NCBI GenBank assembly: GCA_028288395.1
Contig: JAQBNV010000306.1
Location: forward strand, 1 to 13,233
Direction: 5' to 3'
Origin: Adhaeribacter sp.
GTDB lineage: Bacteria > Bacteroidota > Bacteroidia > Cytophagales > Hymenobacteraceae
Length of the DNA stretch: 13,233 nt
Shown here piece after piece: positions 276 through 13,233 of this stretch. Below the pieces are notes generated by a model. That model saw nothing but the letters and a program-made list of their open reading frames with translations, made no database searches and was not told the DNA's origin. The position numbers were made by a program, and so were the translations under genes. How positions within the stretch are numbered: the stretch's first letter is position 1; each line of letters opens with the position of its first letter.

Positions 276-2705
276 TTATTTCTTTTTGCTTGCCGTTACC
301 GCTTTTTTAGTTGTAGCAGCCGTTTTTTTCTTCGGGGCAGCTTTCTTTTTGGGTGCTTCTTTTTCGGGCTTTTCAGCTACGGCTTTCTTCTTGAAGCCTC
401 CCCGGGCCGGTTTGTCAGGGGTCTGCTCAGCCAGAACCAGACATTCTTCTAAAGTAAGTTCGCTTGGTTCTTTTCCTTTCGGAATTTTTACGTTCTTCTT
501 GCTCACCACAATGTAAGGGCCGAAGCGTCCGTTTAAAACCTGTACATCGGGGTTTTCGGCAAAAGTCTTGATGCACTTTTCAGCATCTGCTTTACGTTTT
601 CCTTCTATAATGGCGATGGCTTCTTCTGCATTAACCGTGAAAGGATCGTACTGTTTAGGTAAAGAGTAAAATTTACCCTCGTGTTTAATAAAAGGCCCAA
701 AGCGGCCAATGGCTGCTGTCATTTCTTTATCTTCGAAGAGGCCAATGTTGCGGGGTAATTTAAATAGTTCTAAACCTTCTTCGAGCGAAATACTTTCTAA
801 AAATTGACCTTTGCGTAAACTAGCGTAGGTCGGTTTTTCTGTTTTTTCCTCATTTTCTTCGCCCAACTGCACATAAGGACCAAAACGGCCAAGTTTAGCC
901 AATACTTTCTTGCCGGTCACGGGGTCGGTTCCCAATTCCCGGGCGCCGCTTACCGCCGACCGCTCGATATGCTGGCTCGATTCGATGGTTTCGTGGAAAG
1001 GCCCGTAAAAATTTTCGAGCATCTTTTCCCATTGTTTTTTGCCAGACGCTATCTGGTCAAATTCTTCTTCTACTTTAGCCGTGAAAGAATAATCAATAAT
1101 GGTCGGAAAATAATCTTCCAGAAAATCATTTACCACCATCGCCATATCGGTCGGGAATAGTTTTGATTTTTCGGCGCCCGTAATTTCGGTTCTGGTTTCG
1201 GTGTGCAATTGGTCCTGGGCCAAGGTTAAAACCTGGTATGCCCGCTCTTTCCCTTCCCGGTTATCTTTTTCGACGTATCCGCGTTTCTGAATCGTAGAAA
1301 TAGTGGGGGCGTAGGTAGAAGGCCGGCCTATTCCCATTTCCTCCAGCTTTTTTACGAGGCTTGCTTCTGTGTAGCGGGGGGCCGGCCGCGAAAACCGTTG
1401 GGTAGCCTGTAACCGATCCAGTTGCAACACCCTCCCTACGGCTAAAGGTGGCAGCATCCCTTTTATATCATCGTTCTGCTCGCCATCGTCTTTCGATTCA
1501 ATATATACTTTCAGGAATCCTTCGAAGGTCACCACCTCGCCGGTTGCTACCAATTTGGTGTTGGGCAGGGTAGAAATGCCAATGGTAGCCGTAGTTTTTT
1601 CAATGACCGCATCGGCCATTTGAGAAGCAATGGCCCGCTTCCAGATTAGTTCGTACAGCCGTTGTTCGCTGCGGTCTTCGCTGCCTTGTTTTGCGTTAAA
1701 ATCGGTAGGCCGGATGGCTTCGTGAGCTTCCTGAGCCGAACCGGATTTGGTTTTATATTGGCGGGTTTTGGCATAATCTTCGCCGAAAGCGCGGGTGATT
1801 TCGGTGGCGGCGTTGTTTATCGCTTCCTGCGACAAAAGCGTGGAGTCCGTCCGCATATAGGAGATCTTACCGGCTTCGTAAAGCTTTTGGGCCAGGTTCA
1901 TGGTCTGGGCTACCGAGTAACCCATTTTGCGGCTGGCTTCCTGCTGCAGGGTAGAGGTTGTGAAAGGAGCTGCCGGACTTCTCTTGGTAGGCTTCTTTTC
2001 AACGTTTTCTACGGTATATTCCGCGCCTTTACAATTTTCCAGAAAAGCCTGGGCTTCGGCCTGGGTTTTAAAGCGGGTTGGCAGTTCAGCCTCCAGCTTT
2101 TTCCCATCCATGGTTAAAAAAGCCACTACTTTAAAGGCAGATTCTGCTTTAAACTTTTCAATTTCCCGCTCGCGTTCCACTACCAACCGCACGGCTACCG
2201 ATTGCACGCGCCCGGCCGAAAGACCGGTTTTGATTTTTTTCCAGAGGATAGGCGAAAGTTCAAAACCAACCAGGCGATCGAGTACCCGGCGCGCTTGCTG
2301 GGCATTCACCCGGTTTATATCTATCGCCCGGGGCGATTCAATAGCGTTTAGAATTGCATTTTTAGTAATTTCCCGGAAAACAATGCGCCGGGTTTTGGCA
2401 TCGTTTAGATTCAAAGCTTCGGATAAGTGCCACGAGATGGCTTCGCCCTCGCGGTCATCATCCGATGCCAGCCAAACAATTTCGGCTTCTTTGGCTAATT
2501 TTTTCAGCTGCGCAATTATTTCTTTTTTATCTGCCGAAACTACATAGGTTGGTTTAAAGCCATTTTTTATATCAATGGCATTATTGTCTTTCGGCAAATC
2601 ACGCACGTGTCCAAAACTGGATTTAACGATAAAATCCTTCCCCAAATAACCTTCTATCGTTTTGGCTTTCGCCGGTGACTCTACTATTACTAAATTTTTA
2701 ATCAT
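276..2705 (-). CDS. topA: DNA topoisomerase I (type IA), Bacteroidota form with C-terminal repeats
   Basis: Relaxes negatively supercoiled DNA by single-strand cleavage and passage, via a 5'-phosphotyrosine link. The 809-residue product opens with the TOPRIM domain: VIVESPAKAKTIEGYLG at about residues 6-22 with the catalytic Glu9, and the acidic metal-binding run SDDDREGE at 81-88. The cleavage-site motif SYMRTDSTL at 282-290 gives active-site Tyr283 (Tyr319 in E. coli). RPSTYAPTISTIQKRGYV, typical of the family, follows in the C-terminal part of the core. Instead of the four-Cys zinc fingers of E. coli TopA, the C-terminus has about three glycine-rich GRFGPY/F repeats (topoisomerase C-terminal repeat type), then a lysine/alanine-rich tail of about 40 residues that probably adds non-specific DNA binding. 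The start is the MIKNLVIVESPAKAK-type N-terminus expected for TopA. No strong Shine-Dalgarno is seen. It ends 20 nt before a strong terminator. Confidence 0.98.
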   Translation of the reverse strand: MIKNLVIVESPAKAKTIEGYLGKDFIVKSSFGHVRDLPKDNNAIDIKNGFKPTYVVSADKKEIIAQLKKLAKEAEIVWLASDDDREGEAISWHLSEALNLNDAKTRRIVFREITKNAILNAIESPRAIDINRVNAQQARRVLDRLVGFELSPILWKKIKTGLSAGRVQSVAVRLVVEREREIEKFKAESAFKVVAFLTMDGKKLEAELPTRFKTQAEAQAFLENCKGAEYTVENVEKKPTKRSPAAPFTTSTLQQEASRKMGYSVAQTMNLAQKLYEAGKISYMRTDSTLLSQEAINNAATEITRAFGEDYAKTRQYKTKSGSAQEAHEAIRPTDFNAKQGSEDRSEQRLYELIWKRAIASQMADAVIEKTTATIGISTLPNTKLVATGEVVTFEGFLKVYIESKDDGEQNDDIKGMLPPLAVGRVLQLDRLQATQRFSRPAPRYTEASLVKKLEEMGIGRPSTYAPTISTIQKRGYVEKDNREGKERAYQVLTLAQDQLHTETRTEITGAEKSKLFPTDMAMVVNDFLEDYFPTIIDYSFTAKVEEEFDQIASGKKQWEKMLENFYGPFHETIESSQHIERSAVSGARELGTDPVTGKKVLAKLGRFGPYVQLGEENEEKTEKPTYASLRKGQFLESISLEEGLELFKLPRNIGLFEDKEMTAAIGRFGPFIKHEGKFYSLPKQYDPFTVNAEEAIAIIEGKRKADAEKCIKTFAENPDVQVLNGRFGPYIVVSKKNVKIPKGKEPSELTLEECLVLAEQTPDKPARGGFKKKAVAEKPEKEAPKKKAAPKKKTAATTKKAVTASKKK

Positions 2706-2808
2706 TCTTTATTATACTATAAATCCGACCCTTCAAGCCAATTTTGTTCAAAGATGTATATTTTTTTTTAAATAAAACAACTGCTCACCGCCTCGAAAAA
2801 TCCCGAAA

Positions 2809-2825
2809 GTTCTTATAGTAAGAAC
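2809..2825. promoter_or_regulatory. 17-bp perfect dyad, possible operator upstream of topA
   Basis: GTTCTTA-TAG-TAAGAAC is a perfect 7-3-7 inverted repeat lying 104 bp upstream of the topA start codon. Its size and short spacer fit a binding site for a dimeric regulator better than an RNA terminator, and no T-run follows on either strand. No regulator is identified. A dyad of this size could occur by chance in 950 bp of AT-rich DNA. Confidence 0.3.
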
Positions 2826-3358
2826 CCTTTGTATTAGTTAAGCCGACAAAAGTGCCACTAATTATAAGTTAATTAATGGTATTAAGCGCCAGATTTGGGC
2901 TCTCCTTTATTTAGACAAAAATGGCTGCCTTTTTGGTGCTGAAATTATCCCAAACCGCCAGCCATTGCCGGTGCAAACGCGTACCTGTACCTTATTATAA
3001 AACCTTACTATTTAAAACTAAACAGGTCTAAATAACAGATAAACACGCTTTAAAATTATTTTGCCAATATTTCGTCTCTTAAATTATTCCTGGTTATGAT
3101 AATTTTTGAGCAAGATGGTAAAGGTCAAAGCAGGTTGCCAAAATCAAGCCAGAATTTACACTTTATTAAAGCTCGAATACGGATAATTCAGCCTTTCCTT
3201 TGCCGGCTACCTGACTAACAGGAATGCAAGTATGGATTGAGGACTATAAATATAATATTTTTTCTTTTATCAAGAGCTAATATTTTAAATTTAAATCTGA
3301 AATCTCAGGAAAGTCGAGGATAGTGAAGATTAAGTTAGCTGCTAAGCTTTAAGTCCAT

Positions 3359-3387
3359 AAACTAAAATATTGCCTAAATATTAGTTT
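3359..3387. repeat. Imperfect inverted repeat in the topA/ParA spacer
   Basis: AAACTA (3359-3364) pairs with TAGTTT (3382-3387), and ATATT (3367-3371) pairs with AATAT (3377-3381). This leaves a 2-nt bulge and a 5-nt loop: 11 base pairs, almost all A-T. It could form a weak RNA hairpin or be a protein site. Nothing around it gives a function. Confidence 0.3.
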
Positions 3388-3654
3388 TCGGAGAATGTGA
3401 GAAATAATAGCTGAACTTACCGGACCAGGTTAACCAAATTTCAATATACAATTATACTGGTAATCAGATTATTCCGCTACGGCGCCTTTCCAACAGAAAT
3501 GTTTTTGTAATTTTAGCCTAAAATAGGCGGAAAAAGAATTGATAACTACCTTAAAAATCACAAGATTTGTAGTTGGATAAATGTTTAAATTTTCCTTGCA
3601 AGCGCACTACCTGAAGCAACCGCCTAAATCCTTAATAATATTTTCTTTAGCAGA

Positions 3655-4404
3655 ATGGCACCAAAAATAGTATCTGTGATTAACCAGAAAGGAGGCACAG
3701 GGAAAACTACCACCACCATAAATTTAGGAAGTGCCTTAAGCAAAGCCGGTAAAAAAATATTGCTCATCGACCTTGATCCCCAGGCCAATCTTTCCTATTC
3801 GTTAGGGGTAGAGGAACCCGAAGGTACGCTGGCAGATGTATTTACCGATAATAAAAAGTTAAAAGAAATAATTAAGCAGCAGGGCAACCTGAGTATCGCA
3901 CCGGGTTCGAACGAACTGGTGGATATTGAAATTTCTTTAGTTAACCAACCTGAAAGGGAAAAGTTTCTGAAAAATATTTTAGCCGAGGTTAAAGGCTACG
4001 ATTATATTTTAATAGATTGTCCGCCTTCGCTCTCGCTGCTGACAGTGAATGCTCTGGTCGCTTCCGATGAAGTGGTAATCCCGCTGCAAATGGAGGTTTT
4101 AACCCTTCAGGGATTGGGCCAGATTCTGAATACGGTAAAACAGGTTCGCACGGCTTTCAATCCTAAGTTGAATGTGAAAGGCATTGTGGTGGTCATGTAT
4201 GATAAAAGACGTAAACTCAGTTCGGAGATTCAGGAATACCTGGAGCAGAATGTAGCGGAAAAGATATTTAAAACCCGGATTCGCTTAAACGTAAAACTGG
4301 CCGAAGCGCCTTCTTTTGGCAAAAGTGTGCTGGATTATGATCCGGGTTCTTACGGAGCTCAGGATTACAAGGCTTTGGCAGCCGAATTTTTAAAAACAAA
4401 ATAA
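3655..4404 (+). CDS. Orphan ParA/Soj-family P-loop ATPase, probable positioning factor for the chemosensory array
   Basis: A 249-residue ATPase that by family binds DNA non-specifically as an ATP dimer and moves or spaces a cargo on the nucleoid. The deviant Walker A is at residues 12-19 (KGGTGKTT; signature lysine K12, P-loop lysine K18). The A' motif LLIDLDPQ is at 36-43, and the Walker B motif ILIDCPPS at 118-125 (Asp121). The C-terminal LNVKLAEAPSFGKSV block at about 211-225 is typical of Soj-type ParA. There is no N-terminal helix-turn-helix, so this is the short chromosomal or cargo type. No ParB follows. The next gene is a giant soluble chemoreceptor and then che genes, as for PpfA in Rhodobacter sphaeroides, where a ParA homologue distributes cytoplasmic chemoreceptor clusters. 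That role here is inferred from context. The ATG is followed directly by the first beta strand; no clear Shine-Dalgarno is seen. Confidence 0.93.
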   Translation: MAPKIVSVINQKGGTGKTTTTINLGSALSKAGKKILLIDLDPQANLSYSLGVEEPEGTLADVFTDNKKLKEIIKQQGNLSIAPGSNELVDIEISLVNQPEREKFLKNILAEVKGYDYILIDCPPSLSLLTVNALVASDEVVIPLQMEVLTLQGLGQILNTVKQVRTAFNPKLNVKGIVVVMYDKRRKLSSEIQEYLEQNVAEKIFKTRIRLNVKLAEAPSFGKSVLDYDPGSYGAQDYKALAAEFLKTK

Positions 4405-4481: not shown

Positions 4482-6056
4482 ATGGCTTTAGGAAAAAACA
4501 TGAAGTTGAATAAAGATAAGCTGATTGCTCAACCAGATAAAAATGATTTGGAACAGGTACCAGCTGCGGAAAAGGAAGCCGTCAATCTGCCTACTGCACC
4601 TGAAACCCCGGTTACTTCGCCGGTACCGCCTTCGCCATCGCGGCGGAACGGAACACGGGCCAAAGCGGCGCCAGACGACGCGGCAACCCTGACGGCATCG
4701 GTCAATCCACGGAAAGAGGCCGGACCGTCCGCCCACAGGAATTCAGCTAATGGAACAAATGGATACAACCGGCCGGATATTTCGAATAGCGATTATGTAA
4801 ATGAACAACTGAACCGCGTTTTGTTTGCTCTGGATGCCTTTAAAAAAGGCGATATTTCGGTGAGGCTAACGAAACAGCATAACGATATTTTTGCCGATAT
4901 AGCCGAAGCTTATAACTCGATGGTGGAAATGATCGGAGGAGTAGGTGGTGAGGTATCCCGGATTTCGAAAGTAGCCGGGGTAGAAGGTAACCTCAAAGCC
5001 CGGGCTTCTGCTGAAAATGCCGCCGGCTTCTGGAAAGACATGATCAATAATATCAACGGTCTGGTCGATTCTATTGCGGTTCCGGTTTTAGAAGTAGGTA
5101 AAGTACTGAAGAATATTTCCCGCGGTAATCTCGACGAAAGCTTTCAGATTCCGGTATCCGGCGACTTTAAAGTGATGGCCGAAACGATTAACCGTACCAT
5201 CGATAACCTGAATATTTTTGCCGGGGAAGTTACGCGGGTAGCCTTGGAAGTAGGTTCTGAAGGAAAGCTGGGCGGACAGGCCACGGTACCCAATGTGGCG
5301 GGCGTCTGGAAAGAGCTGACCGATAACGTAAATACCATGGCCAGCAACCTGACCCTGCAGGTACGCGATATTGCCAACGTTGCTACGGCCGTAGCACGGG
5401 GTGACCTGAGCCAGAAAATCACGGTGGATGTAAAAGGCGAAATGCTGCAACTGAAAGAGAACATCAATCAGATGGTTGACTCGCTGAATATTTTTGGGGA
5501 TGAAGTAACCCGCGTGGCTTTTGAAGTAGGCACCGAAGGTAAATTAGGTGGGCAGGCCCGGGTACCCAATGTAGGCGGTACTTGGAAAGTGCTGACCGAT
5601 AACGTAAATACCATGGCCAGTAACCTTACCAGCCAGGTACGCGATATTGCCAACGTAGCCACCGCCGTAGCCAAAGGCGATTTGCGGCAAAAAATTACGG
5701 TAAATGTAAAAGGCGAAATGTTGCAGCTGAAGGAGAATATCAACCAGATGGTGGACTCGCTGAATATTTTCGCCGACGAAGTTACCCGCGTGGCTTTTGA
5801 AGTAGGTACCGAAGGGCGCCTGGGTGGCCAGGCCAATGTGCCTAATGTAGCGGGCGTGTGGAAAGCGTTGACTGACAATGTTAATTATATGGGTAGTAAC
5901 CTCACCAGCCAGGTGCGCGATATTGCCAACGTTGCCACAGCCGTAGCGAAAGGTGATTTAAGTCAGAAAATTACCGTAGATGTTCGCGGCGAAATGTTGC
6001 AACTGAAGGAGAATATCAACCAGATGGTGGACTCCTTGAATATTTTTTGCGGATGA
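4482..6056 (+). CDS. Receptor, N-terminal fragment before the frameshift (disordered tail, lone HAMP, units 1-4)
   Basis: The 524-residue frame starts at the ATG at 4482; a second Met seven codons in (4500) could also serve. Residues 1-20 are basic (LGKN, KLNKDK). Residues 20-105 are rich in Pro, Ala, Thr and Asn and look disordered. The DNA here (about 4600-4760) is more GC-rich than its flanks. A first HAMP-like module with KKGDISVRL follows, then four 92-residue units from residue 156. The frame ends at TGA 6054-6056 after NIFCG, where every other core unit reads on through IF/VF into (A/G)(D/G/N)EVTRV. This shows that the stop is produced by the shift and is not the natural end. Without the C-terminal part this fragment has no signalling tip and could not activate CheA. 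The gene lies 77 bp after ParA and is probably co-transcribed with it. Confidence 0.85.
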
Positions 6057-9000
6057 GGTAACCCGGGTGGCTCGTGAAGTGGGTACCGAAGGAAAATTAG
6101 GTGGACAAGCCAACGTGCCCAACGTGGCCGGGGTTTGGAAAGACCTGACTGAAAACGTGAATGCCATGGGCAGCAACTTGACCAGTCAGGTGCGCGATAT
6201 TGCCAACGTAGCCACGGCAGTAGCCAAAGGCGATTTAAGTCAGAAAATCACCGTAGATGTCCGTGGGGAGCTTTTGCAGCTGAAAGAAAATATTAACCAG
6301 ATGGTGGACTCGCTGAACGTGTTTGCCGGGGAAGTAACCCGGGTAGCGCTAGAGGTAGGGGCCGAAGGAATATTGGGTGGCCAGGCAAAAGTGCCGAACG
6401 TAGCCGGCGTTTGGAAAGAGTTGACCGATAATGTGAACTTTATGGCCGGTAACCTTACCAGTCAGGTGCGCGATATTGCCAACGTTGCCACCGCCGTAGC
6501 GAAAGGTGATTTAAGTCAGAAAATGACGGTAAACGTAAAAGGCGAAATCCTGGAACTGAAAAATATTCTGAACCAGATGGTAGACTCGCTGAATGTGTTT
6601 GCCGGGGAAGTAACCCGGGTAGCGCTGGAAGTAGGTACCGAAGGTAAACTGGGTGGCCAGGCCGAAGTGCCCAAAGTGGCCGGAGTATGGAAAGATTTGA
6701 CGGATAATGTGAACTCCATGGCGGGTAATTTAACCAACCAGGTGCGCGATATTGCCAACGTTGCCACGGCGGTAGCCCGGGGTGACCTGAGCCAGAAAAT
6801 AACGGTGGATGTGCGCGGCGAATTATTGCAACTGAAAGAAAATATAAATCAGATGGTAGACTCGCTGAACGTGTTTGCCGGGGAAGTTACCCGGGTGGCG
6901 CTGGAAGTGGGTACCGAAGGGAAACTGGGCGGCCAGGCCGCAGTACCCAACGTGGCTGGCGTATGGAAAGACCTGACGGATAATGTAAATGCCATGGGTA
7001 GCAACCTTACCAGCCAGGTGCGAGATATTGCAAATGTAGCCACAGCGGTAGCGCGAGGCGATTTAAGCCAGAAAATAACGGTGGATGTCCGCGGCGAAAT
7101 GCTACAGCTGAAAGAAAACATCAATCAGATGGTGGATTCGTTGAATATTTTTGCTGGTGAAGTAACCCGGGTGGCCCGCGAAGTAGGTACCGAAGGAAAG
7201 CTGGGCGGCCAGGCCGAAGTGCCCAAAGTGGCCGGGGTATGGAAAGATCTGACTGAAAACGTAAATGCCATGGGTAGTAACCTGACGGTGCAGTTGCGGG
7301 ATGTATCTAAAGTAGCAACAGCCATCGCTAACGGCGACCTGACCCAGAAAATAACAGTAGAAGTACAAGGCGAAATTCTGCAAATCAAAGATGTGATCAA
7401 CCGGATGGTGGATCAGTTAAGTTCGTTTGCTAATGAAGTAACGCGGGTTTCGCTGGAAGTAGGGGCTGAAGGAATATTGGGTGGTCAGGCGAAAGTGCCT
7501 AATGTGGCAGGCGTTTGGAAAGATTTAACCGACAACGTAAACTATATGGCCGGTAACCTTACCAGCCAGGTGCGCGATATTGCCAACGTTGCCACCGCCG
7601 TAGCCAAAGGAGATTTAAGTCAGAAAATGACGGTAAATGTGAAAGGGGAAATTCTGGAACTAAAAAATATTCTAAATCAGATGGTAGACTCGCTGAACGT
7701 GTTTGCCGGGGAAGTTACCCGGGTTTCGCGCGAGGTAGGTACCGAAGGGAAATTGGGCGGCCAAGCGACGGTGCCTAATGTGGCCGGCGTTTGGAAAGAT
7801 TTGACCGATAACGTGAACTTTATGGCGGGTAACTTAACCAGCCAGGTACGCGATATTGCCAATGTAGCCACCGCCGTAGCCAAAGGCGATTTAAGCCAGA
7901 AAATTACGGTCGATGTGCGCGGCGAATTATTGCAACTAAAGGAAAACATCAACCAAATGGTGGACTCCTTGAATATTTTTGCCGATGAAGTAACGCGGGT
8001 AGCCCGCGAAGTAGGTTCCGAAGGAAAATTAGGTGGTCAGGCGACGGTGCCTAATATTGCGGGTGTCTGGAAAGAATTAACCGTGAACGTAAACACCATG
8101 GCGGGTAACTTAACCAGCCAGGTGCGCGATATTGCCAACGTAGCCACGGCCGTGGCCCGTGGTGATTTAAGTCAGAAAATGACCGTAGAGGTAAAAGGAG
8201 ACATCCTGGAGCTGAAGAATATTCTGAACCAGATGGTAGACTCGCTGAATGTGTTTGCCGGCGAGGTAACGCGGGTAGCACAGGAAGTAGGTTCCGAAGG
8301 TCAGTTAGGCGGCCAAGCGAATGTACCAAACATCGCCGGCGTTTGGAAAGAACTGACAGTAAATGTAAATATTATGGCGGGTAATTTAACCAGCCAGGTG
8401 CGCGATATTGCCAATGTGGCCACGGCCGTGGCCCGCGGTGATTTAAGTCAGAAAATGACCGTAGAGGTGAAAGGTGAAATTCTGGAACTGAAAAATATTC
8501 TGAACCAGATGGTAGACTCACTGAATGTGTTTGCCGGGGAAGTAACCCGGGTTGCGCAGGAAGTAGGCTCCGAAGGTCAGTTAGGCGGACAGGCCGCGGT
8601 ACCTAATGTTGCCGGTGTTTGGAAAGAATTAACTGACAACGTAAACCGGATGGCTACCAACCTCACGGTTCAAGTGCGCGGGATTGTAAAAGTAGTTACC
8701 GCTGTTTCTAAAGGTGACCTTACCCAGAAATTAACCCTTGAAACGAAAGGCGAAATGGCCGATCTGGCCGATACCATCAACAACATGGTGGATGACCTGA
8801 ACCGCCTGGCGGGAGAAGTTAGCCGGGTAGCCCGGGTAGCGGGGGTAGAAGGTAAACTTACCGAAAGAGCCACCGTACTGGGTGTGAGCGGCAGTTGGAA
8901 AGAACTGGTTGATACCCTGAATGATTTGCTCGAATCAATTGTATCGCCGGTACTGGAAGTATCGCGGATTGTACGGGCCATTTCCGAAGGTGATTTAACT

Positions 9001-9087
9001 CAGAAAGTAGAAATTCATACCGCCGGTGATATATTGGCTATGGCCAACGCGGTGAACCTGGCGGTAGATAACCTGAACTCCCTATTG
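4947..9087 (+). repeat. Fifteen tandem 276-bp units encoding paired HAMP modules
   Basis: The period is exactly 276 bp (92 codons), counted from the Gly/Asp/Asn-Glu-Val-(T/S)RV start. Unit starts: 4947, 5223, 5499, 5775 (277 bp, extra T), 6052, 6328, 6604, 6880, 7156, 7432, 7708, 7984, 8260, 8536, 8812. Each unit has a divergent half ([27 protein letters not shown]) and a canonical half ([32 protein letters not shown]). Units 2-13 are highly alike, unit 14 diverges in its second half, and units 1 and 15 are degenerate and resemble each other. Copies keep the protein but often differ at synonymous sites, so most of the array is not a very recent expansion. Modules of this type relay conformational signals along a stacked parallel coiled coil. 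Confidence 0.95.
6043..6048 (+). other. Frameshift site: T6 run with one extra T
   Basis: Other units encode the same Asn-Ile-Phe with five T residues (for example 5491-5495 and the matching places near 7148 and 7978) or with TTTTC (near 5767-5771). Only this copy has six. Dropping one T changes TTT TGC GGA TGA into TTT GCG GAT GAG and restores [12 protein letters not shown] exactly at the unit boundary. The comparison is internal to the window and unambiguous. Whether the extra base is real cannot be told from the sequence. Confidence 0.9.
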
Positions 9088-10284
9088 GGGGAAATCAACG
9101 ACAGTTCCTTGGTGGTAGGTAGTTCCTCCGAAGAAATGGCCAATAAAGGCTTAGACATGAGCCGGGTAATGGTAGATGTAGCTTTATCTATGCAGCAAAT
9201 GGCTGAGGGCGCTACAAACCAGGCCTTGAAAACCGATGCTGCCTTCAAACTGATCGAAGAAATCATGAAGGCTACGAAGGAAACCGCCAACAAAGCTGAT
9301 GTGGTGAACCGGGCCGCCATTATGGGTGAGGAAACCTCCCAATTAGGTTTGAAAACCGTAGCGGAAGTGGTGAAGAACATGGAAGAAATTTCCACAGCGG
9401 CCGCCCTGACCGCCAAAACCATCGAAGTATTAAGTACCCGCTCGCAGGAAATTTCTAAATCCTTGGGCGTAATTACCGATATCGCTGCCCAAACCAACCT
9501 ACTGGCCCTGAACGCTGCCATAGAGGCGGCCCGGGCCGGGGAAGCTGGGCGGGGTTTTGCCGTAGTAGCCGAAGAAATCCGTAAACTGGCCGAAGGCTCC
9601 CGTAAATCGGCAAGTGAAATTGCCACTTTGGTTGACGACGTTAAAAAAGATACGTCTTCGGCGGCGGCCGCAATCTCGACGATGGAAGGTCGGGTTTCGA
9701 AAGGAAAAAATGCTACGTTTGAAGCCTCCGGGGCATTTAAAAATATTGCCACCTCCACCGGCGAAACGCTTCGTTCTTCCCAGGATATTTTAACGGCCAC
9801 AGAAGTACAAAAATCTTCTATTTCGGATGTAGTAAAATACGTGGAAGAGGTAGTAGCCATTGCGGAACAAACGGCTAATGGTACCCAGCAGGTGGCCGGA
9901 ACCGCGAAGCAATTATCGGGTTCTATGCAGGAATTAACTGCTTCCAGCCAACAACTGAACGATATTGCGGAAGATTTGCAAGTCGCTATTTCGGCCTTTA
10001 AACTAATCAACGGTAGTTATATTCCCCATACCCGGGCCATCCGTCGGATGGGCTTCCCGCAAAACAACCGGGATGTATTGGTAACGCCTCCTCGTTTGCA
10101 GGAATATAACCGGAAGGCTGATTTACGCAATGCGGCCAATTTAGCCGCGGCAGAAAATTTAAATTCGGCCCGGGGCCCGATTCCCAGTCGGCCAACGAGC
10201 CCGGCAAAAGGTTCCCCAACTCCGCCACCAGCCGAGGAGACAAAAACACCGGTTAAAAAAGTAACGCCTAAATCCAAATCGTAA
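6067..10284 (+). CDS. Receptor, C-terminal part after the frameshift (units 5-15, signalling domain, tail)
   Basis: The frame is open from at least 6049. The first usable start is GTG at 6067, which in the intact gene is simply the Val of the EVTRV repeat. If used, it gives 1405 residues: most of unit 5, units 6-15 of the HAMP array, the full methyl-accepting signalling hairpin and the basic tail. A GAGG at 6055-6058 lies 8 nt before the GTG and 11 bp after the upstream stop, so re-initiation would be possible, though Shine-Dalgarno use is weak in Bacteroidota. The fragment keeps everything needed to dimerise and bind CheW and CheA. It ends 5 nt before cheW, so the two are surely co-transcribed. 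As an independent gene it is doubtful; it is best read as the rest of the interrupted receptor. Confidence 0.85.
9088..10008 (+). other. Chemoreceptor (methyl-accepting) signalling domain
   Basis: About 307 residues of heptad-rich helix on both sides of a conserved hairpin tip. The tip region (about 9448-9642) contains [20 protein letters not shown], then [20 protein letters not shown] and [10 protein letters not shown], the hallmark of MCP signalling domains that contact CheW and CheA. The two arms are nearly equal (about 148 and 155 residues). The total is close to 44 heptads, so a 44H-like class is possible, but class assignment needs a profile search. Glu/Gln pairs flanked by Ala/Ser/Thr on both arms could be methylation sites for CheR and CheB. 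The domain follows directly on HAMP unit 15. Confidence 0.93.
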
Positions 10285-10289
10285 ATCCC

Positions 10290-10805
10290 ATGGAGCAGGA
10301 TGATTTGAGAAGTAAACGCGACCTGAAAGTAGAGGCTGTTGTACACCTGATAGTTTTTAAACTGGGATCAGAAGAATATGGTATTCGGATTGAGCAGGTA
10401 AAGGAAGTAACTATTACGCCGGAGATTGCCCGGATGCCCAAAACACCGCCTTTTATAAAAGGGGTAGCCAATATTAGGGGCGATATCATTGCCATTATGG
10501 ACCTGGAAGAGCGGTTTCAGATTGCTCCGCCTACGGGCGAAACGGTTCGGGACTATAAAAATACTTTTACGCTGGCCTTAGAGGCCAGCGATTTTACCAT
10601 GGGCTTAATCGTGCGGGAAATGCCGCAATCTTTAACCATTCCGATCTCGCAAATAGATAAGACGCCGGCTTTTATTCAGGATTTAAACATTAATGAGAAC
10701 TTTATTGAAGGTATCGGAAAAATTAAAGGCCGACTGATTATCGTTCTGGATATTTTGCGTATTCTTTCCAGCCTGGAAGTGCAGCAACTGAAAGCATCTT
10801 CCTGA
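10290..10805 (+). CDS. cheW: CheW-like chemotaxis adaptor
   Basis: CheW links receptor tips to the CheA P5 domain in cytoplasmic signalling arrays. The 171-residue product has the two-lobed CheW/SH3-like fold pattern. HLIVFKLGSEEYGIRIEQVKEV at about residues 19-40 is the first lobe, and FIKGVANIRGDIIAIMDLEERF at about 55-76 is the family hallmark (GVxNxRGxxIxxxDLxxRF). A second-lobe strand set includes FTLALEASDFTMGLIV, and FIEGIGKIKGRLIIVLDILRIL closes the domain near 138-159. The length is normal for CheW. It starts 5 nt after the receptor stop codon, so the two are one transcript and probably translationally coupled. There is no strong Shine-Dalgarno; the receptor gene's last codons occupy that position. 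Confidence in the family is high. Its partner is taken to be the upstream receptor from context. Confidence 0.96.
   Translation: MEQDDLRSKRDLKVEAVVHLIVFKLGSEEYGIRIEQVKEVTITPEIARMPKTPPFIKGVANIRGDIIAIMDLEERFQIAPPTGETVRDYKNTFTLALEASDFTMGLIVREMPQSLTIPISQIDKTPAFIQDLNINENFIEGIGKIKGRLIIVLDILRILSSLEVQQLKASS
10570..10590. repeat. 8-bp perfect hairpin inside cheW
   Basis: CGCTGGCC (10570-10577) and GGCCAGCG (10583-10590) are perfect complements with a 5-nt loop, the most GC-rich stem in the cluster. It encodes part of the LALEAS strand of CheW. No T-run follows, so it is unlikely to terminate. It may be a chance product of codon use. Confidence 0.4.
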
Positions 10806-10843: not shown

Positions 10844-11209
10844 ATGAAAAAGAGGATATTAATAGTTGATGATTCTTTCTACATGCGCACCATGTTAAAA
10901 AATATGCTGACGGATGCTGGCTACGAAGTAGTGGGAGAAGCTCCAAACGGTCAAACTGCGCTGCAAATGGCCAAAGAAACCAATCCGGATCTGATTACCC
11001 TGGATGTGATTTTGCCCGATAATACTGGGTTAGATGTATTGAAAGGTATCCGGAAAGACCAACCCGAAATGAAGGTTATAATTGTAAGTGCCGTAGGCCA
11101 GGAAGTGATTGTGACCGAAGCCATCGAATATGGGGCCCTGGCTTACATTGTTAAGCCTTTTTCGGAAGACAAAGTGCTGGAAGTAGTTGGGAATGCGCTG
11201 AAAGAATAA
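10844..11209 (+). CDS. cheY: CheY-like single-domain response regulator
   Basis: A 121-residue stand-alone receiver with all the key residues: the acidic pair Asp9-Asp10 (ILIVDDS), the phospho-acceptor Asp54 (LITLDVILP), the switch Ser82 (VIIVSAVG) and Lys104-Pro105 (AYIVKPF). It should be phosphorylated by the CheA encoded downstream and, with no output domain, act by protein-protein contact. The target (gliding or twitching machinery, or another partner) cannot be told from the sequence. The GVLD-type loop after the acceptor reads TGLDVLKGIR. The start ATG is preceded by a 38-nt, strongly A/T-rich spacer after cheW without a Shine-Dalgarno, normal for Bacteroidota. It belongs to the same transcription block as the receptor and cheW. 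A 160-bp gap with an inverted repeat follows before cheB. Confidence 0.95.
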   Translation: MKKRILIVDDSFYMRTMLKNMLTDAGYEVVGEAPNGQTALQMAKETNPDLITLDVILPDNTGLDVLKGIRKDQPEMKVIIVSAVGQEVIVTEAIEYGALAYIVKPFSEDKVLEVVGNALKE

Positions 11210-11241
11210 AGTTTATCGATTTAAATACATGGCTTGTTGAT

Positions 11242-11315
11242 GTAAACTAATATTTTAACCTTATAGTCGTAATTAACTTATATTCAGTTATTTATTGCTA
11301 ACATTATTAGTTTAC
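11242..11315. repeat. 11-bp perfect inverted repeat between cheY and cheB
   Basis: GTAAACTAATA (11242-11252) and TATTAGTTTAC (11305-11315) are perfect complements separated by 52 nt of AT-rich sequence. The loop is too long for a standard terminator. The arms could be two half-sites for a regulator, or close a larger RNA stem between cheY and cheB. The region also has to hold any separate promoter for cheB-cheA; none is clear. Confidence 0.45.
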
Positions 11316-11369
11316 TTGGTTGTGGCTAAAACGATTCGGGTAACCTGCATGGGGGATTATTATTTCGTA

Positions 11370-11485
11370 ATGGGTAGGAAAGGAGTAGTTGCACTATCAG
11401 AAAAATCAAAATAGTAATAGCTGATTTCTCGGGTTTTTCCAGGCTGGTATTAACCGATATATTAAATGCCGAGGTAGACCTGGAA
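11370..11485 (+). other. Missing 5' end of cheB: receiver start encoded without an in-frame start codon
   Basis: From 11411 the cheB frame reads IVIADFSGFSRLVLTDIL, clearly the first strand and helix of a receiver. This frame is open only back to 11378 (TAG at 11375-11377) and holds no ATG, GTG or TTG before 11486. An ATG at 11370 in another frame would give MGRKGVVALSEK and then stop at TAG 11412-11414. Adding one A to the A5 run at 11401-11405 (or to the A4 at 11408-11411) joins it smoothly to the receiver. An AGGAG at 11381-11385 lies nearby, with in-frame ATC at 11396 as a rare alternative start. Either a one-base deletion, a base-call error or an unusual start explains this. Confidence 0.6.
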
Positions 11486-12481
11486 GTGCTGGATACAGCT
11501 GAAAACGGCGAAGACCTGCTGCTGAAAATAAAAACGCATCAGCCAGACCTGGTAATTGCTGATTACGATTTACCGAAAAACAACCGCATGTTTTGTTTTC
11601 GCCGCATAAATCTGGAACACCGAATACCTATTTTACTTTTACTTAGCCGGGCCCACATAGCGGAAGATTTTATATTTGAAGCCTATAAAGTGGGGGTTTA
11701 CGATTATGTAAAAATTGGCACTCATACCATGCTACCCCAGTTTCGGAATATTCAGACAGAGATTGTGCAGAAGGTAAGGTCGGTGATGGAAGTGAAATAT
11801 TCGCAGGACCGGCAGGCGAACGAACCAATAACTATTAACCAAGAAGCTAAACCTACAACCGTACCTGTAAAGAAAGAAACGACTACCTTGCCACGGTCCT
11901 ATATTATATTGGGCGCATCTACAGGCGGTACAAAGGCTTTGGAATATATTTTAAGCCGGCTAAAACCAGGTTTAAAAACAGTAGTTTTGGTGGCTTTACA
12001 TTTGCCGGGTAGGTTTACCAGTATTTTTGCGAACCGGCTAAAAGGTTTAACGACCTTAAAAGTAATGGAAGGTAAAACCGGTACAACCCTGACAGCAGGT
12101 AAGATTATTGTTGCACCAGGCGATAAAAATATGATCCTGCTGCGGCCGTTGGGGCTACGTTCCGGATTGCGCATTGGTTTTTCTACGGAGCCGGGTGATG
12201 AATATGATTGTCCGTCGGTCGATGTGCTGATGCAATCGGTGGCCGAATTGGTGGGGCCGTGTACCCTGGGAGTGATATTAACGGGCATGGGAAAGGATGG
12301 TACGGCTGGTACCCAGGCTATTTTACAGAATGGCGGCTATACCATTGCCCAGGATGAAACCTCTTCCGTGATTTTTGGCATGGCCAAGTCGGCGATTGCT
12401 GCCGGAAGTATTAAAAAAGTTTTAAGCTTAACGCAAATACCTGATTACATTAACCGGTATGCCGAATACCACCAAATATAG
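11486..12481 (+). CDS. cheB: CheB-type protein-glutamate methylesterase with atypical receiver
   Basis: Removes methyl groups from receptor glutamates, setting adaptation. Coordinates give the longest frame with a usual start (GTG 11486, 331 residues). The true protein almost certainly begins about 30-40 codons earlier. Numbering from 11486, the receiver keeps the presumed phospho-acceptor Asp26 (VIADYDLP), but the conserved Lys-Pro is replaced by KIG. Upstream, the acidic pair is Asp-Phe. A linker (about 105-136, Thr/Lys-rich) leads to the catalytic domain: Ser145 in GASTGG, His172 in VALHLPGRF and Asp271 in LTGMGKDG form the usual Ser-His-Asp triad, so the esterase looks active. The TAG stop lies 18 nt before cheA. 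No CheR appears in the window, although methylesterase without methyltransferase makes little sense, so cheR is probably nearby. The catalytic domain is certain; control of it by phosphorylation is doubtful. Confidence 0.92.
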   Translation: MLDTAENGEDLLLKIKTHQPDLVIADYDLPKNNRMFCFRRINLEHRIPILLLLSRAHIAEDFIFEAYKVGVYDYVKIGTHTMLPQFRNIQTEIVQKVRSVMEVKYSQDRQANEPITINQEAKPTTVPVKKETTTLPRSYIILGASTGGTKALEYILSRLKPGLKTVVLVALHLPGRFTSIFANRLKGLTTLKVMEGKTGTTLTAGKIIVAPGDKNMILLRPLGLRSGLRIGFSTEPGDEYDCPSVDVLMQSVAELVGPCTLGVILTGMGKDGTAGTQAILQNGGYTIAQDETSSVIFGMAKSAIAAGSIKKVLSLTQIPDYINRYAEYHQI

Positions 12482-12499: not shown

Positions 12500-13233
12500 A
12501 TGAAATCGAGAGAACAAGAATATAAGGAAATCTTTATTGCCGAAGCACTGGAGTATTACGATGCCCTGAACCGGCACATTAGTGATCTGGAAAAGAATCC
12601 GGAGAATGATGCGGTTTTGGCCGAAATATTTCGCCTTCTTCATAACATGAAGGCCAATGCCAAAGCCATTGGATACCTGAACATTTCTGATATTTCGCAC
12701 AAGCTAGAAACCGCTTTTGAGCTGGTCCGGAATAAAAAAATTGCTTTTACCGATGAGACGGTAACCGTTTTGTTTGATGGTATTGATTTCCTGGGCGAGC
12801 TGATTAATAACTTAGACCACGAAGATTATCAGATTCAGGACGAAAGTATTATTAAAAACCTGGATATTATTGTTGAGTCTGCAGAAATAAAAATTAAATC
12901 CGGGGATAAAGCAGTAGGACCGGCGAAAGCGCCAAAGTTCCTGAATGCTAAAAATATTCAGCTTTCTGACCTGATTTATATTCAGATAAAGAAACTGGAC
13001 CACATGCTGAACCTGGTAGGTGAGTTGATCATCGATCGGGACCGGATTATTTCGATAAGCAAGGAATTGGATCATCCGGATTTGAGTGCAGTTAGTTCTC
13101 ACTTGTACCGGCTTACCGAGGATTTACAGTTTAGCGTTATGGATGCCCGGCTGGTTACCATCGGGTCCTTGTTTAATAAATTCCCCCGCATTGTCCGCGA
13201 TATTGCGGTGGCCGAAAAAAAGGAATTTCACCT
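12500..13233 (+). CDS. cheA: Chemotaxis histidine kinase CheA (N-terminal 244 residues; runs off the window)
   Basis: CheA autophosphorylates when held in receptor arrays and passes phosphate to CheY and CheB. The frame is open from the ATG at 12500 to the window end. Residues about 1-125 form the P1 histidine-phosphotransfer domain, with IFRLLHNMKANAKAIGY at 43-59 giving phospho-acceptor His48. A link of about 30 residues leads directly to the P3 dimerisation hairpin, IQIKKLDHMLNLVGELIIDR at 161-180. No P2 (CheY-docking) domain fits between them. DLQFSVMDARLVTIGSLFNKF at 208-228 then FPRIVRDIAVAEKKEF is the usual approach to the P4 ATPase domain, which lies beyond the edge with P5. It starts 18 nt after cheB, clearly in one operon. 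The start fits the family; the Shine-Dalgarno is weak at best. Confidence 0.95.
   Translation, partial: MKSREQEYKEIFIAEALEYYDALNRHISDLEKNPENDAVLAEIFRLLHNMKANAKAIGYLNISDISHKLETAFELVRNKKIAFTDETVTVLFDGIDFLGELINNLDHEDYQIQDESIIKNLDIIVESAEIKIKSGDKAVGPAKAPKFLNAKNIQLSDLIYIQIKKLDHMLNLVGELIIDRDRIISISKELDHPDLSAVSSHLYRLTEDLQFSVMDARLVTIGSLFNKFPRIVRDIAVAEKKEFH

Follow-up and report, generated by a model that had tools for sequence, protein, structure and literature searches.

What does a chemoreceptor respond to when it carries no recognizable sensor, and what is the apparently empty N-terminus of such a protein for? These questions are raised by a gene of Adhaeribacter sp. (family Hymenobacteraceae), which lies in a 13,233-bp stretch of DNA (contig JAQBNV010000306.1; hereafter, the window) of a draft assembly of 3.95 Mb in 681 contigs that is 78.6% complete. 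The gene encodes a methyl-accepting chemotaxis protein (MCP) built on a long chain of HAMP domains. An original prediction, made from the DNA letters alone, had described a soluble, sensor-less poly-HAMP receptor, and this description stands; what it had overlooked were the adjacent gene for a ParA-family ATPase and a conserved peptide of 15 residues at the N-terminus of the MCP. When these are included, the explanation that we consider likely is a cytoplasmic chemosensory array, similar to that of PpfA/TlpT, which would be positioned by its own ParA and would have the poly-HAMP rod as its receptor stalk. In four of the six sampled genera the MCP starts with this 15-mer, which probably links it to a chromosome-bound positioning motor, ParA.

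We observed that the MCP opens with a near-invariant basic 15-mer (consensus MALGKNxKxxKxKLI). Across 46 named loci, 11 of the 15 positions were invariant, four of them being lysines, and the invariant non-basic positions were A2, L3, G4, N6, L14 and I15. Beyond this tag the entropy exceeded 1 bit at positions 16-18 and from position 20 on, and the linker that followed was variable in sequence and 61-110 residues long. A model of residues 1-259, of low confidence (mean predicted local distance difference test, pLDDT, of 45.9) and usable for secondary structure only, had no helix in residues 1-102 and a helix-loop-helix from residue 103; the linker (residues 16-105) is probably disordered.

The presence of the tag was further compared with that of the ParA gene. 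There were 80 named loci, 12 of which were left out as their contigs end inside the gene. All 46 tagged loci had an adjacent ParA, while ParA was found in none of the 21 untagged readable loci, all of them from Hymenobacter and Solirubrum, which have neither tag nor ParA (a 22nd untagged readable locus, L065, was set aside, its gene being broken and the tag lying upstream). The pattern MALGKNxK, searched in the 150 Hymenobacteraceae genomes, gave one match each in 76 genomes, i.e. in 76/76 of the genera labelled g1, g2, g3 and g6 and in 0/74 of g4 and g5; the reversed pattern gave none. A looser pattern was used for the order, which we take to be Cytophagales. It matched once each in 20 of 291 genomes (the reversed pattern had no match), and 17 of these matches begin chemotaxis genes (16 MCP and one CheW); the other three, being short non-gene frames, were dropped. 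ParA lay 14-356 bp upstream of 14 of the 17 genes, and the three tagged genomes without an adjacent ParA (G166, G213 and G223) carry a ParA of the same clade elsewhere. In 395 genomes spread across the phylum, 15 of them from the same order, the order pattern did not occur.

The ParA proteins that accompany the tag form a clade of their own. Clade members (scoring at least 224 bits) were found in 35 of the 291 genomes of the order, and G197 was added from its placement in the trees. Clade ParA was thus present in 27/27 genomes tagged by either pattern, as compared to 9/264 of the others (Fisher 1e-30, ignoring kinship). In an enlarged ParA tree of 58 rows, to which 14 clade candidates and two chromosomal ParAs had been added and which includes the nine pattern-negative genomes, one branch (support 99/97, and 100% of bootstrap trees) separated 39 chemotaxis-linked rows from 19 others. 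Seven of these 36 genomes with clade ParA, namely G221 and six from the family, are outside this tree and were assigned by score. Eight of the nine pattern-negative genomes carry a variant of the tag, directly downstream of ParA in G173, G202, G227, G253, G240 and G330, and on an MCP elsewhere in G188 and G215, so the exact patterns miss variants.

We also examined a tree of MCP tips (35 rows), in which the tag label requires five changes, at least four of them forced, and ParA follows it. All 16 tagged tips came from genomes or loci with ParA. Among the 19 untagged tips (four of them Hymenobacter/Solirubrum loci checked by neighbourhood only), ParA was present only in G368, whose tag sits on CheW. 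The untagged poly-HAMP MCPs of G270 and G370, which belong to other families, fall within the tagged clade although neither genome has clade ParA, as if they had been transferred without it. Although it has been gained or lost several times and is borne by different host proteins, the tag co-occurs with the distinct ParA clade.

These host proteins were of several kinds. Among the more distant loci, all seven tagged MCPs that were scanned carry PAS before HAMP and no membrane segment. One of them (L142:4133-10384, 2084 aa) has 13 PAS_3 stretches and one HAMP pair and is the PAS counterpart of the poly-HAMP rod; the tagged receptor is thus long in two ways, through PAS or through HAMP repeats. 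G368 bears the tag on a CheW that follows ParA (L155:1501-2169, Pfam CheW 101.6 bits), and the best-matching MCP of that locus (L146) is probably a membrane receptor, since it has a strongly hydrophobic segment (Kyte-Doolittle 2.72). The tagged protein of G173, G202, G227 and G253 is PAS-like and has 217-225 residues; three of these small proteins were scanned, and their PAS matches were borderline, with one exceeding a Pfam cut-off. In a genus of another family, such a small tagged protein follows clade ParA (L274:4375-5028, L277:3801-4451 on the minus strand, L278:3997-4647 and L280:3479-4153), and no MCP match was seen in the stretches around these four. A bolder reading, which we regard as unlikely, is that the tag is a portable ParA 'luggage tag' that hands MCPs, CheW and PAS-like proteins to a dedicated ParA clade, and that in Hymenobacteraceae the input of the pathway may be how the receptor engages ParA and the nucleoid, which the rod would read mechanically. 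The HAMP rod would then have replaced the sensor, and the state of the chromosome or of energy would be read rather than a chemical.

Several observations weigh against an array positioned through the tag by a ParA of its own. The ParA of G197 is below the E-value cut and sits in the clade on a long branch of unsure placement; without it, the tagged genomes with clade ParA number 26/27. The score gap is narrow (224.5 bits for the lowest clade member and 220.7 for the best chromosomal-type ParA). The nine pattern-negative genomes with clade ParA include G265, where no tag was found on the 17-kb contig that was the sole part examined, and, in the opposite sense, G384 (L149) has a degenerate tag, MALGKNSQKETL, and no clade ParA. 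Many of the 46 loci and 27 genomes are close kin, the split of the tag inside the family may be one event, and the co-occurrence could reflect operon inheritance. The low confidence of the N-terminal model and the broken frame of the window's own MCP gene (see below) belong here too. Finally, the Hymenobacter MCP has neither tag nor ParA, so the rod is independent of them; and as Hymenobacter keeps the poly-HAMP MCP together with the Che genes, positioning would be an add-on to a conserved signalling rod.

The closest known system is that of Rhodobacter sphaeroides, where the soluble MCP TlpT is encoded next to the orphan ParA PpfA (PMC3964821, PMC9178275), and the N-terminus of TlpT has been suggested to stimulate ParA in a ParB-like manner (PMC7993993). 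In the window too, an orphan ParA gene lies beside a cytoplasmic MCP whose N-terminus bears a short, positively charged peptide, and the ParA clade is separate from the chromosomal ParAs. The systems differ in that TlpT has 567 aa, while most relatives here have 1.2-1.9 thousand residues with 17-31 HAMPs, and in that the window-type MCP is the sole receptor and shares a specific 15-mer with different types of protein. What we claim is a likeness to PpfA in how this ParA would work, and not identity with PpfA. That che operons may include ParA genes has been known since 2010, when such genes were counted in 77/206 species (PMC2829493).

More generally, partners of ParA/MinD ATPases are described as making contact via short charged N-terminal peptides, and for PomX, a 22-residue peptide suffices for ATPase activation, to a lesser degree than the whole Ala/Pro-rich N-domain (PMC7993993). 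In the positioning systems of H. neapolitanus, the partner peptide has been likened to a 'luggage tag' (PMC10241942). The MCP resembles PomX, ParB and McdB in having such a peptide on the cargo or partner, which in PomX is followed by the Ala/Pro-rich region; the tag and linker of the MCP are laid out likewise. The peptides of those partners vary by system, whereas here one conserved sequence is found on MCP, CheW and PAS-like proteins. By eye, the tag also resembles the motif of chromosomal ParB proteins (ALG(K/R)GL vs MALGKN(L/M)K, with a length difference after it), which we treat as a hint only. The ParB N-termini for this comparison were taken from relatives, since ParB was not found in the window's own genome (78.6% complete).

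The positive charge of the tag could have another meaning, namely that the N-terminus binds DNA directly and ParA acts separately. This would be as in FrzCD of Myxococcus, a soluble MCP of a gliding bacterium whose positive N-terminal tail is reported to bind the nucleoid (PMC5716589), with two HAMPs between tail and tip (PMC12077210). FrzCD is like the window MCP in its basic N-terminus, its HAMPs, the nucleoid as a scaffold and a non-flagellar host (PMC12077210, PMC5716589), and the four invariant lysines of the tag would suit such binding. However, FrzCD binds DNA itself, apparently through charge rather than a specific sequence, as its authors suggest (PMC5716589), whereas the tag is invariant at non-basic positions too and follows the ParA clade genome by genome. 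This conservation argues for a specific partner over sequence-independent DNA binding, and direct binding is the least probable of the explanations considered here.

In the array positioned by its own ParA, the 15-mer would contact the ParA dimer and stimulate its ATPase, as the ParB and PomX peptides do, and nucleoid-bound ParA would move, spread and share out the receptor clusters. The flexible linker would tie the tag to a dimeric poly-HAMP rod, whose length we estimate from helix length at ~75-80 nm for 31 HAMPs (~2.5 nm per HAMP). Such a rod could hold the MCP tip, CheW and CheA off the nucleoid surface and relay conformational signals, and candidates for its input are a bound protein, a physical state, or the engagement with ParA. 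A role as a stalk that sets the position of the tip fits the data.

The MCP is encoded in two open reading frames (ORFs), ORF1 (4482-6056, 524 aa) and ORF2 (6067-10284, 1405 aa), the coordinates of which had been given correctly. Fifteen exact 92-residue units had been claimed. Tandem Repeats Finder returned a single tandem array at 5208-8645 (period 276 bp, 12.5 copies, 78% matches, 0% indels), and the spacing is indeed exactly 92 residues; the unit sequences, on the other hand, differ, with even the best pairs reaching no more than 96% identity. Both Pfam HAMP and HAMP_2 matched ORF1 and ORF2 far above cut-off, which bears out the HAMP-like nature predicted for the half-units. Counting by hidden Markov model (HMM) in the two ORFs as separate frames gave 8 and 22 modules, i.e. 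fifteen pairs in strict alternation of divergent and canonical HAMPs. The lone first module taken alone was under the Pfam cut-off (HAMP_2 15.9 bits vs 24.3, E 0.013); it aligns with the canonical HAMPs of the family (hhalign probability 78.5, E 1.7e-5) and also with the start of the solved poly-HAMP chain PDB 9trk. The total is 31 HAMPs (30 profile-supported and one weak), in agreement with the predicted number of about 31.

The predicted MCP tip and the predicted lack of a membrane or sensor domain were confirmed as well. The highest 19-residue Kyte-Doolittle means were 1.35 and 1.24 in the two ORFs, and no membrane segment was seen in either by hydropathy (compare 2.72 in the L146 membrane MCP). 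Pfam found no PAS or ligand-binding family in either ORF or in residues 1-105, where no family at all matched at E up to 1, so that neither Pfam nor hydropathy shows a hidden membrane or sensor domain in these first 105 residues. The protein thus has an MCP signalling domain, no membrane segment, and concatenated canonical and divergent HAMPs; a protein search with it returned only the names 'HAMP domain-containing protein' and 'methyl-accepting chemotaxis protein'. ATG17_like (105.3 bits, cut-off 43), PhoR, SpoIIID and GatB_Yqey also passed whole-protein cut-offs. We read these as repeat artefacts, since only the sums over the HAMP repeat pass and no single stretch does. A weak SpoIIID match overlies the HAMP repeat at 6067-10284. 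Partial SpoIIID-like matches across HAMPs have been reported for Myxococcus AskA/AskB and Amb07 (PMC7643160).

To hold that HAMPs work only alone or as short chains was too strong, as poly-HAMP chains are a described class and the solved chain PDB 9trk (also 9trj in PDB) is clearly homologous to the window MCP (269.6 bits). Arrays of about 30 HAMPs have reportedly been noted in surveys; '31 HAMP' was absent from the literature that we found on poly-HAMP arrays. Aer2 of Pseudomonas aeruginosa has three HAMPs (PMC3570549), and group III hybrid kinases and Myxococcus AskA/AskB are described with 'frequently more than 5' or six (PMC7643160, PMC11253588). They share with the window MCP consecutive canonical and divergent HAMPs. 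The chains of Aer2 and the kinases are shorter, and a ParA tag is unmentioned for them in the available text of these papers; Aer2 and the PAS-MCPs, moreover, have a recognized ligand or PAS domain, while the window MCP has none.

We then considered whether the length of the chain has a role, since the HAMP repeat might mainly be a neutral expansion by unequal recombination. Number does vary among close relatives (22 counted HAMPs in A. rhizoryzae, L052, vs 30 in the window), mostly by whole pairs. The middle units of the window are mostly near copies of one another, and of the units that could be compared in full, the first and the last match their counterparts in A. rhizoryzae at 100% identity (the pattern used recognized 13 of the window's 15 pairs), which fits an internal turnover of the array. 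However, alternation was strict in 66/66 readable named loci (L065 and L103 excluded), as the count in homologues proposed with the original prediction turned out, and none had fewer than 16 modules (range 16 to 30, without the lone first one). The counts also cluster by genus, being 22 in 22/33 Pontibacter/Botryobacter and 19-20 in 19/21 Hymenobacter/Solirubrum loci, and the tagged receptor of another family (L142) is equally very long through PAS repeats. We therefore think it unlikely that length has no role. HAMPs were also counted in more distant MCPs of the order, at 18 loci, of which 15 had one pair, two had three modules and one had a single module. To us, the Hymenobacteraceae rod looks like an expanded relay pair whose sensor was lost.

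PF00015 gave exactly one match per genome in 24/24 genomes of Hymenobacteraceae, of which 23 are assembled in one to four contigs, so the poly-HAMP MCP is the only chemoreceptor in each of them. With no other recognized input domain in this sole MCP, the array itself may be the sensor, of osmotic state, crowding, ionic strength or a small molecule, while ParA just distributes the clusters. Kinases that have an N-terminal poly-HAMP and no membrane segment are reported to serve osmotic and drug responses (PMC7643160, PMC11253588). Against this, the sequence reveals neither a ligand nor a physical response, and the tagged MCPs elsewhere in the order, which keep one HAMP pair together with PAS arrays, fit a relay whose copy number has grown. 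We regard sensing by the array as possible, with a chance somewhat below even; it is compatible with positioning by ParA. As for adaptation, CheR matched in a frame of ordinary size (276-281 aa) in just 4/24 of these genomes, the remaining matches falling in frames of 363-2707 aa and G004 having none, and CheB had no match downstream in a number of named loci. For much of the family, classical methylation adaptation is therefore in doubt.

In the window, the T run in 6040-6056 marks the point where the MCP gene falls into ORF1 and ORF2, and this break could be either an assembly error or real. It raises the concern that, in this genome, the gene is no longer alive but a pseudogene, or that part of the array was created by the assembly. 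The draft is in 681 contigs, a second locus (L065) is likewise frame-broken inside the HAMP chain, and tag and tip are on different contigs in G001, G008, G100 and G128. In Pontibacter harenae (L103:10216), the MCP frame stops early within the tip region, with CheW 1086 bp beyond. The L065 break, the early L103 end and the contig splits indicate a repeat that is hard to assemble. We consider a dead or artefactual gene rather unlikely, as the MCP tip was present in 150/150 family genomes searched, mostly in frames of 1.2-1.9 thousand residues, and intact orthologues of the same architecture are common among relatives, including single-contig genomes (1924 aa in G012).

The features of the window are collected in Table 1. 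The chemotaxis genes are in the order ParA-MCP-CheW-CheY-CheB-CheA on the plus strand, and the ParA gene ends 77 bp upstream of the MCP gene.

Table 1. Features of the 13,233-bp window and the evidence for each
Feature	Position	Strand	Evidence
topA, DNA topoisomerase I, left flank	276..2705	-	Pfam Topoisom_bac 395 bits
ParA-family ATPase, 249 aa, deviant Walker A KGGTGKT, chemotaxis-linked clade	3655..4404	+	Pfam AAA_31 194.7 bits; ParA trees
N-terminal 15-residue tag of MCP, proposed ParA contact	4482..4526	+	conservation in 46 loci; genome-wide pattern tests
Linker, residues 16-105, probably disordered, without recognized domain	4527..4796	+	no Pfam match; low-confidence model; variable length and sequence
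Lone first HAMP-like module, weak	4803..4931	+	sub-threshold Pfam; hhalign; PDB 9trk alignment
HAMP modules 2-9, four divergent/canonical pairs, ORF1	4932..6047	+	HMM count; HAMP_2 143.8 bits, HAMP 137 bits
Frame break ORF1/ORF2 at T run	6040..6066	+	reading frames; intact orthologues of relatives
HAMP modules 10-31, eleven pairs, ORF2	6067..9084	+	HMM count; HAMP 351.6 bits, HAMP_2 333.6 bits
MCP signalling domain (MCPsignal 9325-9858) and C-terminal tail	9085..10284	+	Pfam
CheW	10290..10805	+	Pfam CheW 101.9 bits
CheY-like receiver	10844..11209	+	Pfam Response_reg 106.1 bits
CheB	11486..12481	+	Pfam CheB_methylest 177 bits; Response_reg profile positions 26-97
CheA, truncated by window end	12500..13231	+	Pfam Hpt and H-kinase_dim

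The listed start of CheB (GTG at 11486) leaves its receiver domain short at the N-terminal end; by eye, CheB homology appears to extend upstream into 11200-11486, where there is no obvious ATG. In the two relatives scanned that far (L052 and L111), CheC/CheX come after CheA. In Hymenobacter negativus (L111), topA immediately adjoins the MCP gene with no ParA between them, meaning that ParA is absent there as a block. A His_Phos_1 histidine phosphatase, presumably SixA-like, lies between topA and ParA in two relatives (L052:5546-6019, L083:5706-6191); at the corresponding site of the window (2706-3654), no reading frame exceeds 54 aa. An arginase-family gene was seen past the Che genes in all three relatives scanned (L052:16684-17790, L111:15544-16692, L083:17733-18821).

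Poly-HAMP chains and cytoplasmic clusters positioned by ParA have been described before, and so has the occurrence of ParA genes in che operons. As far as our literature searches show, which covered titles and the beginnings of abstracts and found nothing on this peptide or this receptor, two things are new: a tag that has a ParA clade to itself and is borne by several kinds of protein, and a bacterial family in which a HAMP rod lacking a sensor is the sole chemoreceptor of each genome tested. Together they amount to a natural experiment on two questions. One is the function of poly-HAMP chains, since in the genomes tested the sole receptor has no other structure on its input side. The other is how ParA ATPases choose their cargo: one defined peptide, paired with a ParA clade of its own, has several times been gained or lost and is found on various proteins, so that specificity could be tested with a peptide of 15 residues. 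For the 'empty' N-terminus of the Hymenobacteraceae receptor, the 15-mer and ParA suggest a testable function, namely attachment to a ParA positioning system.

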